Below the pieces are notes generated by a model. It ran no database searches, had not been told where the DNA came from, and worked only from the letters and a program-made list of their open reading frames with translations. DNA of 64,000 bases. It comes from Clostridia bacterium. GTDB lineage: Bacteria > Bacillota > Clostridia > Oscillospirales > CAG-272. The DNA lies in the NCBI GenBank assembly GCA_017482355.1, contig JAFUNJ010000012.1, positions 124,001 through 188,000 of the forward strand, written 5' to 3'. Position numbers and translations under genes: made by a program. Below are positions 42,192 to 46,881 of this stretch, in pieces. How positions within the stretch are numbered: position 1 is the first letter of the stretch; every line of letters starts with the position of its first letter.

Positions 42192-42421
42192 ATAAATGCG
42201 ATGACGGTGAAGAGTACCCGTAAAATAGCTATCAGAGAGCCGCAGGCAGCTGGAAATGCGGCAGCGAAAGGACGGAGAAGGTCGCACCGTAGCAGTGGAA
42301 AGAAAGCTTATGCAAGTAGAATCCGCCGTGAATCTGCGTAAAGGATGAAAGAGTGCGTGCTTTTGCACGAATTCAGGTGGTACCGCGCTTACGGCGTCCT
42401 GTTTTTACGGGGCGTTTTATT
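42192..42421 (+). promoter_or_regulatory. T-box riboswitch, valine specifier GUC
   Basis: Leader RNA that senses uncharged tRNA-Val and lets transcription read into valS. Stem I begins with GATGACGGTGAAGAGTA and carries the AGAGAG element and a distal loop. The 3' side of the specifier loop reads AGAAGGTCG between ACGG and CACCGT, giving the codon GUC at 42281-42283. The T-box bulge sequence AGGTGGTACCGCG is at 42375-42387. The competing terminator is CGTCCTG / CGGGGCG followed by TTTTATTTTTT (42394-42424). Specifier and downstream gene agree. Confidence 0.95.
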
Positions 42422-42462
42422 TTTTGCTTCGACGAAAACGAAAACTATTAAGGAGAAATGTT

Positions 42463-45108
42463 ATGACAAACGAACTTCCGAAGAATTATAACCCTGCGGA
42501 ATTTGAAGACCGTCTTTACAAATTTTGGGAAGAAAACGGCTACTTCCGTCCCTCGGGTGATAAGAGCGCACCGACGTTCTCGATGGTTATTCCCCCTCCG
42601 AACGTAACGGGTCAGCTTCACATGGGTCACGCACTTGATGAGACCCTTCAGGACATTCTTGTCCGCTATAAGAGAATGCAGGGCTTCGATACCCTTTGGG
42701 TGCCCGGAACCGACCACGCGGGAATCGCAACGCAGATAAAGGTCGAGGAGCGCCTCCGCGTTGACGAAAATCTTACCAGATACGACCTCGGACGCGAAAA
42801 GTTCCTTGAGCGCGTTTGGGGCTGGAAGGATATGTACGAAAACCGTATAACGAGTCAGCTCCGCAAGCTCGGCGCGTCCTGCGACTGGTCGCATCAGCGC
42901 TTTACTATGGACGAGGGATGCTCGAAGAGCGTCCGCGAGGTATTCGTAAACCTATATGAAAAGGGACTTATCTACCGTGGCTACCGTATTATAAACTGGT
43001 GCCCCCGTTGCCTTACCGCCCTCTCCGACGCAGAGGTCGAATATAAGGATCAGCCCGGCTTCTTCTGGCACATCAAGTACCCGATAATCGGTGAAGACGG
43101 CTACGTTGAGGTTGCCACCACACGTCCTGAGACGATGTTCGGCGATACCGCAATTGCCGTAAACCCCGAGGACGAGAACACCAAGCATCTTATCGGCAAA
43201 AAGGTTCTTCTTCCTATCGTAAACCGCGAGATTCCCGTTATCGCAGACGATTACGTTGAGATCGGATTCGGCACGGGCTGCGTTAAGATCACGCCCGCAC
43301 ACGACCCCAATGACTTCCTTGTAGGTCAGCGTCACAACCTCGAGCAAATCAAGGTCATGAACGACGACGCAACTATGAATGCCTACGCAGGCAAATACGA
43401 GGGAATGGATCGCTACGCTTGCCGCAAGGCGCTTGTAGCTGATCTCGAAGCAGAGGGCTACCTCGTCAAGACCGTGCCGCACGACCACAACGTCGGCGTT
43501 TGCTACCGTTGCGGAACGACCGTTGAGCCGATGACGAGCGATCAGTGGTTCGTTAAGATGAAGCCGCTTGCCGAGCCGGCTATCGAGGCAGTTGAGAACG
43601 GAAGCATCAATTTCGTTCCCGAGCGTTTCTCCAAAAACTATTTCAACTGGATGAACAACATCCTTGACTGGTGTATTTCCCGTCAGCTCTGGTGGGGACA
43701 CCGTATTCCTGCGTTCTACTGTGATGAATGCGGCGAGATGACAGTATCTAAGACCGATATTGAAACCTGCCCGAAGTGCGGAGCAAAGGTTCGCCAGGAC
43801 GAGGACGTTCTTGACACATGGTTCTCCTCTGCACTCTGGCCCTTCTCTACCCTCGGCTGGCCTGAAACGACTGAGGATCTCAAGAGATACTACCCGACAG
43901 ATGTACTCGTCACCGGCTACGACATAATCACGTTCTGGGTATCGAGAATGATATTCTCCGGCCTTGAGCACATGAATGAAAAGCCCTTCTCTACCGTATT
44001 CATTCACGGTCTCGTCCGTGACGCGCAGGGCAGAAAGATGTCGAAGTCTCTCGGAAACGGTATAGATCCCCTTGAAATCATCGAAAAATACGGCGCTGAT
44101 GCACTCAGATTCGCGCTTGCGACGGGTAACTCCCCCGGAAACGATATGCGCTTCTCCGACGAGAAGATCGAGAGTGCTAGAAACTTCGCAAACAAGCTTT
44201 GGAACGCTTCGCGTTTCGTTCGTATGAACCTCACGATCGACAAGATCGAGCTTCCCGACGAAAGCAAGCTTTCACTTGAAGATAAGTGGATACTCAACGA
44301 GTACAACGCGCTTGTAAACAACGTAGTTTACAACCTCGACAAGTTCGAGATCGGCGTTGCTCTCGGTGCTATCTACTCCTTCACATGGGACATCTTCTGT
44401 GACTGGTACATTGAGATCGCAAAGTCGCGCCTTAACGAAAAGGACACCGAAGCAAACCTCACCTGCCAGAACGTGATCGCTTACGTTCTCTACGGCACCC
44501 TCAAGCTTCTCCATCCCTTTATGCCCTTCATCACCGAGGAGATCTTCGCGTCGCTTCCTCACGAGTGCGACAGCATTATGATCTCGGCATATCCGAAGTA
44601 TGACGAAGCACTTTCCTTCCCGACCGACGCCGAGAAGATGAACAAGATCATCGACGCGATCAAGGCGATCAGAGCACGCCGCAGTGAAATGAACGTTCCG
44701 CCATCCAAGAAGGCGACCGTATATATCGCAACGAAATATAACGACATTTTCGGAGCAAACAGCGAGCCGTTCTTTATCCGTCTTGCATCTGCTTCCTCTG
44801 TCGTTGTTGCGGAAACGTTCAACGAAAATGACATTAGCGCAGACAACGCAGTTCAGATCGTAACCGACTCCGCGTCTATCTTCCTTCCCCTTTCCGATAT
44901 TATCGACTTCGAAAAGGAAAGAGCGCGTCTTGAAGGTGAAAAGACCAAGGTTGAAGGTGAAATCGAAAGAATCGAAAAGAAGCTGTCGAACGAGGGCTTC
45001 GTTTCGAAGGCGCCCGCGGCAGTCGTTGAAGGCGAAAAGGCAAAGATGGCTAAATACCGCGAGACTCTTGACGGTATAATCTCTGCTCTTAACGCTCTTC
45101 CGAGGTAA
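42463..45108 (+). CDS. valS: Valyl-tRNA synthetase
   Basis: 881 residues, class I. It charges tRNA-Val and edits mischarged threonine. The HIGH-type motif is [14 protein letters not shown] (about 40-53). The CP1 editing domain carries [37 protein letters not shown] precedes a zinc-like CDEC...CPKC pair. The KMSKS motif is in [11 protein letters not shown] at about 523. The C-terminal coiled coil (about 830-880) begins [20 protein letters not shown] and is typical of ValRS. AAGGAG stands 8 bases before the ATG at 42463; an upstream ATG lies in the T-box terminator and is rejected. Controlled by the T-box in front. Confidence 0.98.
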
Positions 45109-45987: not shown

Positions 45988-46524
45988 TCAAACACCCAAC
46001 AATTGCTTTTTCTTTGCCTCAAATTCTTCTTGAGTAATGATTCCTTGCTCAAGAAGATTCTTGAACTTAAGTATTTCATCTGCGGCAGAATTTGTTGAAT
46101 CTGAAACTTCAACGACATCGTTATCCTTGTAGTTTTCAAATGCCTTTTTTATTACTGCACCGACAGAATTGGCAAAATCATTAGTTTTTCCAAAGCTGAA
46201 CATACCGCTACAAAACAGAATTCTGTTTGTATCTTTCATAGCATTGAGATTTTGTGCACTACCAAAATCTATACCCACAACTCTATTTTTGGAATTCATA
46301 CCCGTCAAAAATACCACTTGAGCAAACTGAGAATTCATATTTGCTTTAACAATATCTATCCCAATATATTCCTTAAAATACCAAGTCATGGTTTTGTTTC
46401 CATTAAGGTATCCAACAACCTTATTATCGTAAACTTCAAGTGTATCGTGCCACAAGTTACCTGCAAGCGTTGTTTTCTTTCTCTGTCCAGCGGGAACGAT
46501 GATTCTTTCAATTAAATTATCCAT
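45988..46524 (-). CDS. SHOCT-domain protein with N-terminal PH-like domain
   Basis: 178 residues from the ATG at 46524 (GGAGG 5 bases upstream); the longer frame runs into a terminator. Residues about 10-120 are beta-rich, with VYDNKVVGYLNGNKTMTWYFKEYIGIDIV and VVFLTGMNSKNRVVGIDFG, consistent with a PH-like fold. The last 30 residues form a SHOCT domain: EILKFKNLLEQGIITQEEFEAKKKQLLG. SHOCT domains are short C-terminal modules of unknown role, thought to mediate oligomerisation. The gene sits directly behind the structured RNA and its terminator, which may control it. No signal peptide. Confidence 0.85.
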   Translation of the reverse strand: MDNLIERIIVPAGQRKKTTLAGNLWHDTLEVYDNKVVGYLNGNKTMTWYFKEYIGIDIVKANMNSQFAQVVFLTGMNSKNRVVGIDFGSAQNLNAMKDTNRILFCSGMFSFGKTNDFANSVGAVIKKAFENYKDNDVVEVSDSTNSAADEILKFKNLLEQGIITQEEFEAKKKQLLGV

Positions 46525-46540
46525 GATTTCCTCCAAAAAC

Positions 46541-46570
46541 AAAAAAGTGCGCCAACCGAGGTCAGCGCAC
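46541..46570 (-). terminator. Intrinsic terminator of the structured RNA
   Basis: GTGCGCTGACC / GGTTGGCGCAC on the minus strand followed by TTTTTTGTTTTT, ending about 15 bases before the SHOCT ATG. Its placement makes expression of the SHOCT gene depend on read-through. Confidence 0.88.
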
Positions 46571-46754
46571 CGAAAAACGCAAACTCCGATTGTCGCGAAA
46601 CAAACTTCAACAGAAAAGGGGTTACCTTGTACTATTTCAAAGGGGAGCTTGCGCTTTTACCAAATTCCACCTTTGAAATAGTATGTCAAAAAAAGGTATA
46701 ATTATCCCATAAAGATAAAAATCCCCTTGTTTCTGTTTATTTAGTTTGTTTCGC
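46541..46754 (-). ncRNA. Structured RNA with nested long hairpin, 6S-like or 5' regulatory leader
   Basis: Transcript predicted from the promoter at 46761-46789 to the terminator at 46541-46570, about 214 bases. Its 5' end GCGAAACAAACT (46743-46754) pairs perfectly with 46595-46606. A second stem pairs 46723-46737 with 46609-46621 with a two-base bulge. A third pairs TACTATTTCAAAGG (46670-46683) with 46630-46643, 14 perfect bp. The tip contains AGC-GCAA-GCT, a GNRA tetraloop stem. Between stems 2 and 3 the 5' side has 39 bases and the 3' side 8, i.e. a large one-sided bubble. A single long rod closed at its ends with an internal bubble is the 6S RNA plan. The SHOCT gene immediately behind also allows an attenuator or riboswitch. 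Class unknown. Confidence 0.6.
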
Positions 46755-46760
46755 AATTTC

Positions 46761-46789
46761 ATTATATCACTCATAAAGACAAATTGCAA
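46761..46789 (-). promoter_or_regulatory. Promoter of the structured RNA
   Basis: TTGCAA and TATAAT on the minus strand with a 17-base spacer; the predicted start falls at the first base of the closing stem of the RNA. Confidence 0.75.
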
Positions 46790-46790
46790 T

Positions 46791-46827
46791 AAAAAACTGC
46801 GAAAAATTAAGTTTTCGCAGTTTTTTT
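46791..46827. terminator. Bidirectional terminator behind the GDPD gene
   Basis: AACTGCGAAAA / TTTTCGCAGTT with an ATTAAG-type loop and T-runs on both sides. It closes the minus-strand operon running from 52311. Confidence 0.85.
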
Positions 46828-46881
46828 GTTGATTATTATGAAGTCGTCTATCGTTTTTATGAAATAATTGGCGCGTTGTTT

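Follow-up and report, generated by a model that had tools for sequence, protein, structure and literature searches.

A multicopy pseudoknotted RNA with its own promoter and terminator before accessory genes of gut Clostridia: an apparently undescribed class of structured leader

Introduction

The described RNAs closest to the one reported here are riboswitch and attenuator leaders with an intrinsic terminator, a kind with which it shares a conserved 5' leader, a pseudoknot and a terminator placed immediately upstream of the gene's ribosome site. c-di-GMP riboswitches stand before a mixed set of genes that includes surface proteins, and the genes found in this study are likewise a scattered set with surface proteins among them. 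6S RNA (RF00013) is comparable in length (about 200 nt), in forming a long hairpin with an internal bubble and in having its own promoter. The RNAs of type III toxin-antitoxin loci (ToxI, CptI) belong to units in which, according to PMC5086642, promoter, pseudoknotted RNA, terminator and gene follow one another in the same order as here.

The locus under study lies in a window of 64,000 nucleotides, by which we mean the whole stretch of DNA that was analysed, from a Clostridia bacterium (contig JAFUNJ010000012.1). A sequence-only reading had proposed that a structured RNA stands there upstream of a SHOCT gene and had offered three identities for it: a 6S-type RNA, a new attenuating leader or an independent RNA class. 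We favour, at somewhat better than even odds, the interpretation that it represents a class of structured leader RNA, apparently not described before, that switches, and by leaky termination attenuates, accessory genes. That such a class exists and is linked to genes we hold far more firmly, as judged from the comparison of its copies. Its unit, as the sequence shows, is self-contained: a promoter, a compact pseudoknotted RNA with a predicted start on the first closing-stem base, and an intrinsic terminator, all placed shortly upstream of the site where ribosomes would load on an accessory gene.

Results

The RNA and its surroundings in the window

The RNA occupies positions 46541-46754 of the window on the minus strand, a strand that the sequence-only reading had not named, and measures 214 nt, its 5' end (46754) and 3' end (46541) both being placed from the promoter and the terminator. 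The promoter consists of a -35 box TTGCAA (46784-46789; a match at four of six positions), a 17-nt spacer and a -10 box TATAAT with a TG extension (46761-46766), which ends 6 nt 5' of the RNA and thus puts the predicted start on the first base of the closing stem, as had been proposed. At the other end, the intrinsic terminator T2 (46541-46570) has its stem at 46570-46547 and its U-run at 46546-46541. It is followed by a Shine-Dalgarno sequence GGAGG (46530-46534) and by a gene for a protein of 178 aa (45988-46524) with a C-terminal SHOCT domain (PF09851, E = 6e-9, residues 149-176). Between the end of the U-run at 46541 and the ATG at 46524 we count 16 nt, close to the 15 or so given by the sequence-only reading. 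The minus strand folds at -83.3 kcal/mol (z = -8.9; equalled by 0 of 200 shuffles), and the plus strand at -71.9 (z = -8.1); because long inverted repeats fold on either strand, the direction of the RNA is read from the promoter, the terminator and the gene.

Two neighbouring features may be recorded here. A long hairpin at 46784-46826, with an A-run on one side and a T-run on the other, is likely a bidirectional terminator and overlaps the -35 region of the RNA promoter. Further along, a T-box leader (RF00230, 126.8 bits) lies on the plus strand at 42192-42404, and the gene directly 3' of it (42424-45108) is presumably a valyl-tRNA synthetase, going by its open reading frame as read by eye.

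Copies and distribution

BLAST detects at least a piece of the RNA in 23 of 59 genomes, its own included. A covariance model built from 24 copies finds five copies in the own genome at E < 1e-6, three of them long (182-192 nt to the end of the conserved tail) and two short (131 and 139 nt). With the own genome counted, the model has matches in 116 of 394 genomes sampled from the order and in 71 of 391 sampled from the class, and in the phylum sample it matches the own genome only (1 of 398); as just 6-7 candidates were scored per genome in these three samples, the counts are lower bounds. Confinement of the RNA to one order is ruled out, with 68 of the 71 positive genomes of the class sample belonging to other orders. 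Fuller scoring of 26 hand-chosen genomes (20 known positive, 6 negative) returned matches in the same 20, with up to nine in one genome (G406); among the nine in another (G377), one is an opposite-strand shadow.

An exact pattern of the tail occurs in at least 120 contigs. Most of the 80 titles listed are metagenome genomes from animal guts, and the sole strain record with a full species name among these 80 is that of Pumilibacter intestinalis (Clostridia). Three model searches gave 60, 114 and 87 matches, of which 54, 97 and 84 were used, those dropped being 21 on the opposite strand and 5 truncated where the locus ended; the search of the 120 tail-pattern loci covered all of these except 20 (L200-L219). 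The resulting 235 coordinates correspond to 225 distinct elements, 209 long and 16 short, and the tails of 97 of the 235 vary little because their loci were chosen by the exact tail pattern.

On viral contigs the exact tail pattern has 0 matches, and two looser patterns hit 3 and 5 contigs. The RNA is found on five IMG/VR contigs (L300-L304, of which L300, L301 and L302 are the same stretch) and in two unannotated phage records. In four of the five contigs the element stands near a gene that, from open reading frames read by eye, we take to encode a terminase small subunit; in L303 it precedes what we take to be a lipoprotein gene, beside such a presumed terminase gene. One of the unannotated records, from a human gut phage (L305, 338-1720), has the element before a methylase-like gene, and a similar gene follows one of the own genome's copies (L002). 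Apart from this, a Gut-1 RNA (RF01706; L077, 1826-1902) lies less than 200 nt from one element copy, and contig ends sometimes fall close beside the element, for example at L224, L235, L250, L258, L261, L271 and L281, as if the region breaks assembly.

Fold and covariation

The closing stem P1 has 12 bp (5' strand 46743-46754; 3' strand 46595-46606, assigned from the covariation alignment) and encloses P2 and P3. P2, whose sequence differs among copies, is read from the fold (46723-46737 with 46609-46621), and P3 (46670-46685 with 46630-46643) from the fold together with the complementarity of its arms, which over 204 copies averages 12.8 in cis against 7.4 in trans. The three nested stems are thus where the sequence-only reading had put them, as is its one-sided internal bubble. 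The latter is a one-sided branch between P2 and P3 (46690-46723), made up of a small side hairpin, P2a, and a U-run; a run of at least four T is present at this place in 199 of the 209 long copies, and only 64 of the 209 have a P2a-type hairpin (at most -3 kcal/mol) immediately ahead of the run. In the window and in long copies, the side hairpin and U-run look like a weak terminator or pause site within the RNA.

At the tip stands a conserved apical hairpin, GGAATTTGGTAAAAGCGCAAGCTCC (46644-46668), which is kept in the alignment A1 of 24 copies. The GNRA tetraloop noticed earlier does exist in the window copy, as GCAA closed by GC pairs, and is nevertheless no property of the family, GCGCAAGC recurring in 2 of 225 copies. 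P1 is directly followed by a conserved 3' tail of 22 nt (46573-46594), nucleotides 2-5 of which can pair with the 3' strand of P1 to form an alternative hairpin (AH, see below). A strand in the apical loop, AAAAGCGCAAGCTCC (46644-46658), and a stretch of the tail, GGAGTTTGCGTTTTT (46573-46587), are the two strands of a pseudoknot, the former assigned by ungapped, threshold-based pairing (219 of 225 copies) and the latter by pairing scores and covariation. The apical hairpin and the pseudoknot are mutually exclusive conserved pairings.

Forty copies drawn at random fold with z values between -14.6 and -3.5, the median being -8.9. The alignment used for covariation comprises 102 long copies, 101 of them distinct. 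In it, 99.2% of P1 cells are paired and 10 of the 12 pairs show changes on both sides. P1 and the pseudoknot together reach a covariation score of 0.279 against 0.124 in shuffles, none of 500 of which scores as high; shuffle tests of this kind are inflated by related sequences. The same architecture, compensatory changes included, is found across the 225 distinct copies, so that the covariation among related copies on which the proposal of a structured RNA had been made to depend is abundant.

The pseudoknot has 15 bp. Its apical strand reads AAAAATGCAAATTCC in 69 of 225 elements and is similar in most others, and its tail strand is most often the GGAGTTTGCGTTTTT of the window. Two of the 219 copies that reach the pairing threshold do so at an atypical strand, and five of the six that fail are short forms (5 of 16 short forms). 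Pairing scores average 26.6, compared with 16.0 when the sequence is reversed, and 86.8% of pseudoknot cells in the alignment are paired, a figure lowered by two badly aligned A-run columns. Long forms hardly vary in these strands, and diverged and short copies supply several of the clearest double changes. Among the 16 short copies, apical strands pair with their own tails at a mean of 20.3 versus 17.1 with foreign tails, and in 13 at least one foreign tail does better, the automatic placement of the apical strand being wrong for one short copy of the own genome and one of L291; among similar long copies of one genome, cis pairing does not exceed trans. G-U pairs are frequent in the given sense within the pseudoknot, which would fit an RNA better than a DNA structure. 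In long copies we also observed strong covariation (z = 31.6; G-C and A-T for the most part) of the position two places 5' of the apical pseudoknot strand with the base that directly follows the tail, which may extend the pseudoknot around a bulge or be a mere marker of a subfamily.

A second fold around the closing stem

A mutual-information scan of the 162 long forms (of 209) with all anchors ranks two P1 pairs first. The third pair joins position -8 of the P1 3' strand (P1') with tail position 4 (z = 46.9; 99% complementary), so that the covariation is three-way, tail nucleotide 4 complementing P1' nucleotide -8. The pairing involved is AH, in which tail nucleotides 2-5 (ACNA) would meet P1' nucleotides -9 to -6 (UNGU) across a 6-nt loop and which is mutually exclusive with P1. 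All four of its pairs are possible in 215 of 225 elements; in the 101 distinct rows, 98.8% of cells pair, 34 of them with double changes. The covariation score of AH is reached by 0 of 500 shuffles, and two of the five measures are ordinary (double-change pairs are matched by 107 of 500 shuffles, further pair types by 120 of 500). Subfamily structure raises scores of this type, and 91.3% of cells still pair when the partner is shifted by -3.

The direction of the dependence can be read from elements in which P1 is not Watson-Crick at the position concerned: in seven, P1 position 8 is a G facing U and the tail base is A, so the tail tracks P1' rather than P1. In three further elements, with G-C at this position, the tail A is unpaired. 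We read AH as a second functional fold, a reading drawn from sequence comparison; its covariation may instead reflect a tertiary contact.

Promoter lock and the genes behind the element

The tight spacing between promoter and closing stem seen in the window is a family trait. Sufficient upstream sequence is available for 222 elements. In 185 of them exactly 6 nt separate the end of the -10 box from P1; 189 have a spacer of 17 nt, and 200 have an extended -10 (TG), versus 19 in shuffled controls. At the other end, 219 of the 222 have a run of at least four T at T2 and 216 a T2 hairpin of -8 kcal/mol or below, and in 211 of all 225 the T2 stem motif begins 0-3 nt 3' of the tail.

Eight of the 225 elements have too little sequence behind them and eight have no gene call, which leaves a gene behind 209 of 217. 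It starts 40-69 nt past the tail in 146 of 209 (at a median of 26 nt past T2), whereas random windows have a gene call in 495 of 840 cases and a start within that range in 58 of the 495. This bears on the possibility that the RNA is a stand-alone non-coding RNA, with a function in trans or in the form of an RNA-protein particle, and that the gene behind it only uses its promoter through leaky termination. A promoter, a closing stem at the apparent 5' end and a terminator do make up a complete non-coding RNA gene, and tandem copies without sizeable genes exist at one locus (L291, see below), an arrangement that also speaks against a leader switch; yet so many gene starts just behind T2, far above the control, are not what a stand-alone RNA would lead one to expect, and the variable sequences of P2 and P3 suit a single conserved trans target poorly, although the conserved tail and apical loop could suit one. 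We therefore consider a stand-alone RNA unlikely, and a leader the better description.

The genes behind the element are diverse. Of 199 downstream proteins, 110 were scanned against Pfam, PADLOC and PHROGs, with at most 450 residues taken from each; among the 25 Pfam families listed of 52 are BspA-type LRR_5 (14 proteins), zinc ribbons (5), AMP-binding (3), MazE/AbrB-like (3), EcoRI-type methylase (2), LiaF-like (2) and SHOCT (2). By simple rules of our own, which are not a signal peptide predictor, 111 of the 209 downstream proteins have a hydrophobic N-terminus and 46 a lipobox-like motif, compared with 75 and 18, respectively, of 343 background ORFs. AMP-binding-type genes with similar first residues stand behind leaders of both lengths, long in L021 and L077 and short in L027, so that the form of the leader seems replaceable while the association with the gene stays. 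Separately, the SHOCT gene of a relative (L308; G007:C25, about 723-1356) has upstream of it a 44-nt piece of the leader tail and terminator region, without a whole element by the model.

A mixed gene set with surface proteins would also be in keeping with a c-di-GMP riboswitch of unusual shape. Sixteen of the 21 leader-bearing genomes searched, however, have no detected GGDEF protein (among them the own genome, only 77.5% complete), and the element has no Rfam match, which makes this identity highly improbable. The order of parts, in turn, could suggest an RNA antitoxin as in the type III loci outlined in PMC5086642, with the RNA binding its own protein. Against this stand the diversity of the proteins and the outcome of the domain searches, with no ToxN-, CptN-, TenpN- or AbiF-type toxin in the 17 PADLOC families found for the 110 scanned proteins (of 199) and no type III toxin among the 25 Pfam families listed of 52; we regard an antitoxin as very improbable.

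Shared cores and tandem copies

Near-identical RNA cores stand before unrelated genes. In one genome, L241 and L245 differ at four positions of the RNA core (counted by eye) and have different terminators and genes, and between L250 and L258, which come from two genomes, identity is 94% over 218 nt. Alignments that span the element number 3637; 1668 of them start 11-20 nt before P1 and 2318 stop 30-39 nt past the tail, edges that could stem from gene conversion, from mobility or from constraint on the RNA alone. Tandem arrangements occur as well, with two copies each at L296, L033 and L198 and four short copies at L291 (401-1380; three found by the model, the fourth by eye), each of the four with its own promoter and terminator. 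Between them lie no sizeable genes, only short, similar peptide-like frames of about 16 codons.

These observations raise the question whether the element is a dispersed mobile or gene-converted sequence that is kept mainly by spreading, its position before genes being secondary. Shared cores, the many alignments that stop near the -10 box and at T2, and the copies on viral-type contigs all point that way, as does the copy number expected of palindromic mobile elements (REP/MITE), with five copies in the own genome and up to nine matches elsewhere. But the same edges are expected if the RNA alone is constrained, and conserved ends shared by all copies permit gene conversion; covariation at 10 of 12 P1 pairs and the precise placement of gene starts speak against mere spreading. 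No empty site was seen among the orthologues, which are distant genes only: seven SHOCT orthologues besides the own gene match only in their C-terminal part, and the AMP-binding orthologues, 40-43% identical and found in 4 of 197 genomes, have no leader match. No known palindromic element was matched in Rfam, so that the concern that the palindrome is one already described finds no support there, although cores that are nearly identical do stand before unrelated genes. On balance a purely mobile element seems quite unlikely to us, more so than a stand-alone RNA, and we retain the structured leader as the preferred reading.

Comparison with RNA families and a search for attenuation

No element matches any Rfam 15 family at gathering scores, in the scan of the window or in the 40 additional locus scans. 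At E <= 5, 28 weak matches appear around the locus, all under their gathering scores and most overlapping the neighbouring hairpin at about 46781-46845. 6S RNA was considered for its similar length and its long hairpin with an internal bubble and rejected, RF00013 having no match at the locus either at its gathering score or at E <= 5. The genome's sole 6S-like match lies elsewhere (C5:224418-224628; 42.8 bits, below the cut-off of 46.4). In a search of 27 genomes, 23 (the own and 22 of 26 others) have one 6S match each, 16 of these above the cut-off and none at a listed element, and the leader has up to nine matches per genome. The probability that the RNA is a 6S RNA is, in our estimate, close to nil, and of the three identities first offered the independent class is supported both by covariation and by the missing Rfam matches on elements. 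In the literature searched, no report pairs SHOCT with a riboswitch or Christensenellales with a riboswitch, or contains the tail sequence; the tables of 3161 candidates in PMC8040213 may list the RNA.

The remaining identity, an attenuating leader, agrees with the layout and with the linkage to genes, and the exchange of terminator and antiterminator usual in attenuators was not found. T2 arms pair with leader segments no better in cis (10.3 and 9.5) than in trans (10.4 and 9.8), in a test that an invariant antiterminator would escape. In the same test the P3 arms, taken as a control, stand out clearly (12.8 in cis vs 7.4 in trans) and the pseudoknot hardly does (21.7 vs 20.8); because the pseudoknot strands are nearly invariant there, the test detects only pairings that vary between copies.

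Discussion

In the reading we favour, most transcripts would end at T2 as an RNA of about 214 nt, with some reading through and yielding the protein. The two competing sets of pairings, apical hairpin or pseudoknot at the tip and P1 or AH at the base, could constitute a two-state switch, the balance of folds setting how often T2 is read through and a signal shifting that balance. As in most copies no more than 3 nt lie between the end of the pseudoknot and the T2 stem, we would expect the pseudoknot to act on T2 by stacking or timing rather than as a classical antiterminator. The short form at L296, read by eye, illustrates this logic most clearly: one strand there has two possible partners, the apical strand or a sequence further downstream, and by pairing with the latter it would leave the apical strand free for the tail. 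Whereas the family and its linkage to genes are direct observations, we infer the switching and its signal, and the alternative pairings may be folding intermediates or a tertiary contact.

A broader interpretation, which we offer tentatively and think somewhat doubtful, is that the element is a portable, promoter-locked switch, a module from the first transcribed base to the terminator that has been copied before unrelated accessory, surface and phage-borne genes and answers to one shared signal. The RNA core might spread as a unit, perhaps through an RNA intermediate.

If the favoured reading is right, a single RNA switch with no entry in Rfam 15 would control many accessory and surface genes of gut Clostridia. 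The mechanism can be put to the test through the strict lock between promoter and P1 and through the three-way covariation, which speaks for two functional folds, and the identity of the signal would show what turns on surface proteins and accessory genes in little-cultured bacteria.

Among known systems, the RNA differs from 6S RNA in being multicopy and pseudoknotted and in escaping the 6S model at the locus, and from c-di-GMP riboswitches in having no Rfam match and in occurring mostly in genomes (16 of 21) in which no GGDEF protein was detected. With the RNAs of type III toxin-antitoxin systems it shares the order of parts and little else, each unit having one long pseudoknot in place of an array of short repeats and standing before diverse proteins; tandem repeats of short pseudoknots are not seen, and it is whole units that stand in tandem (L033, L198, L291, L296). 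Riboswitch and attenuator leaders are the nearest, with a structured RNA in the 5' leader, an intrinsic terminator and mutually exclusive conserved pairings all present here. A structured leader with a terminator is thus a known kind, within which the class itself, its promoter lock and its diverse gene set, having no match in Rfam 15 or in the literature found, are apparently undescribed; what sets it apart from other leaders of this kind, besides the antiterminator exchange not found in it, is a transcription start placed at the first base of the closing stem and the diversity of the genes that follow.
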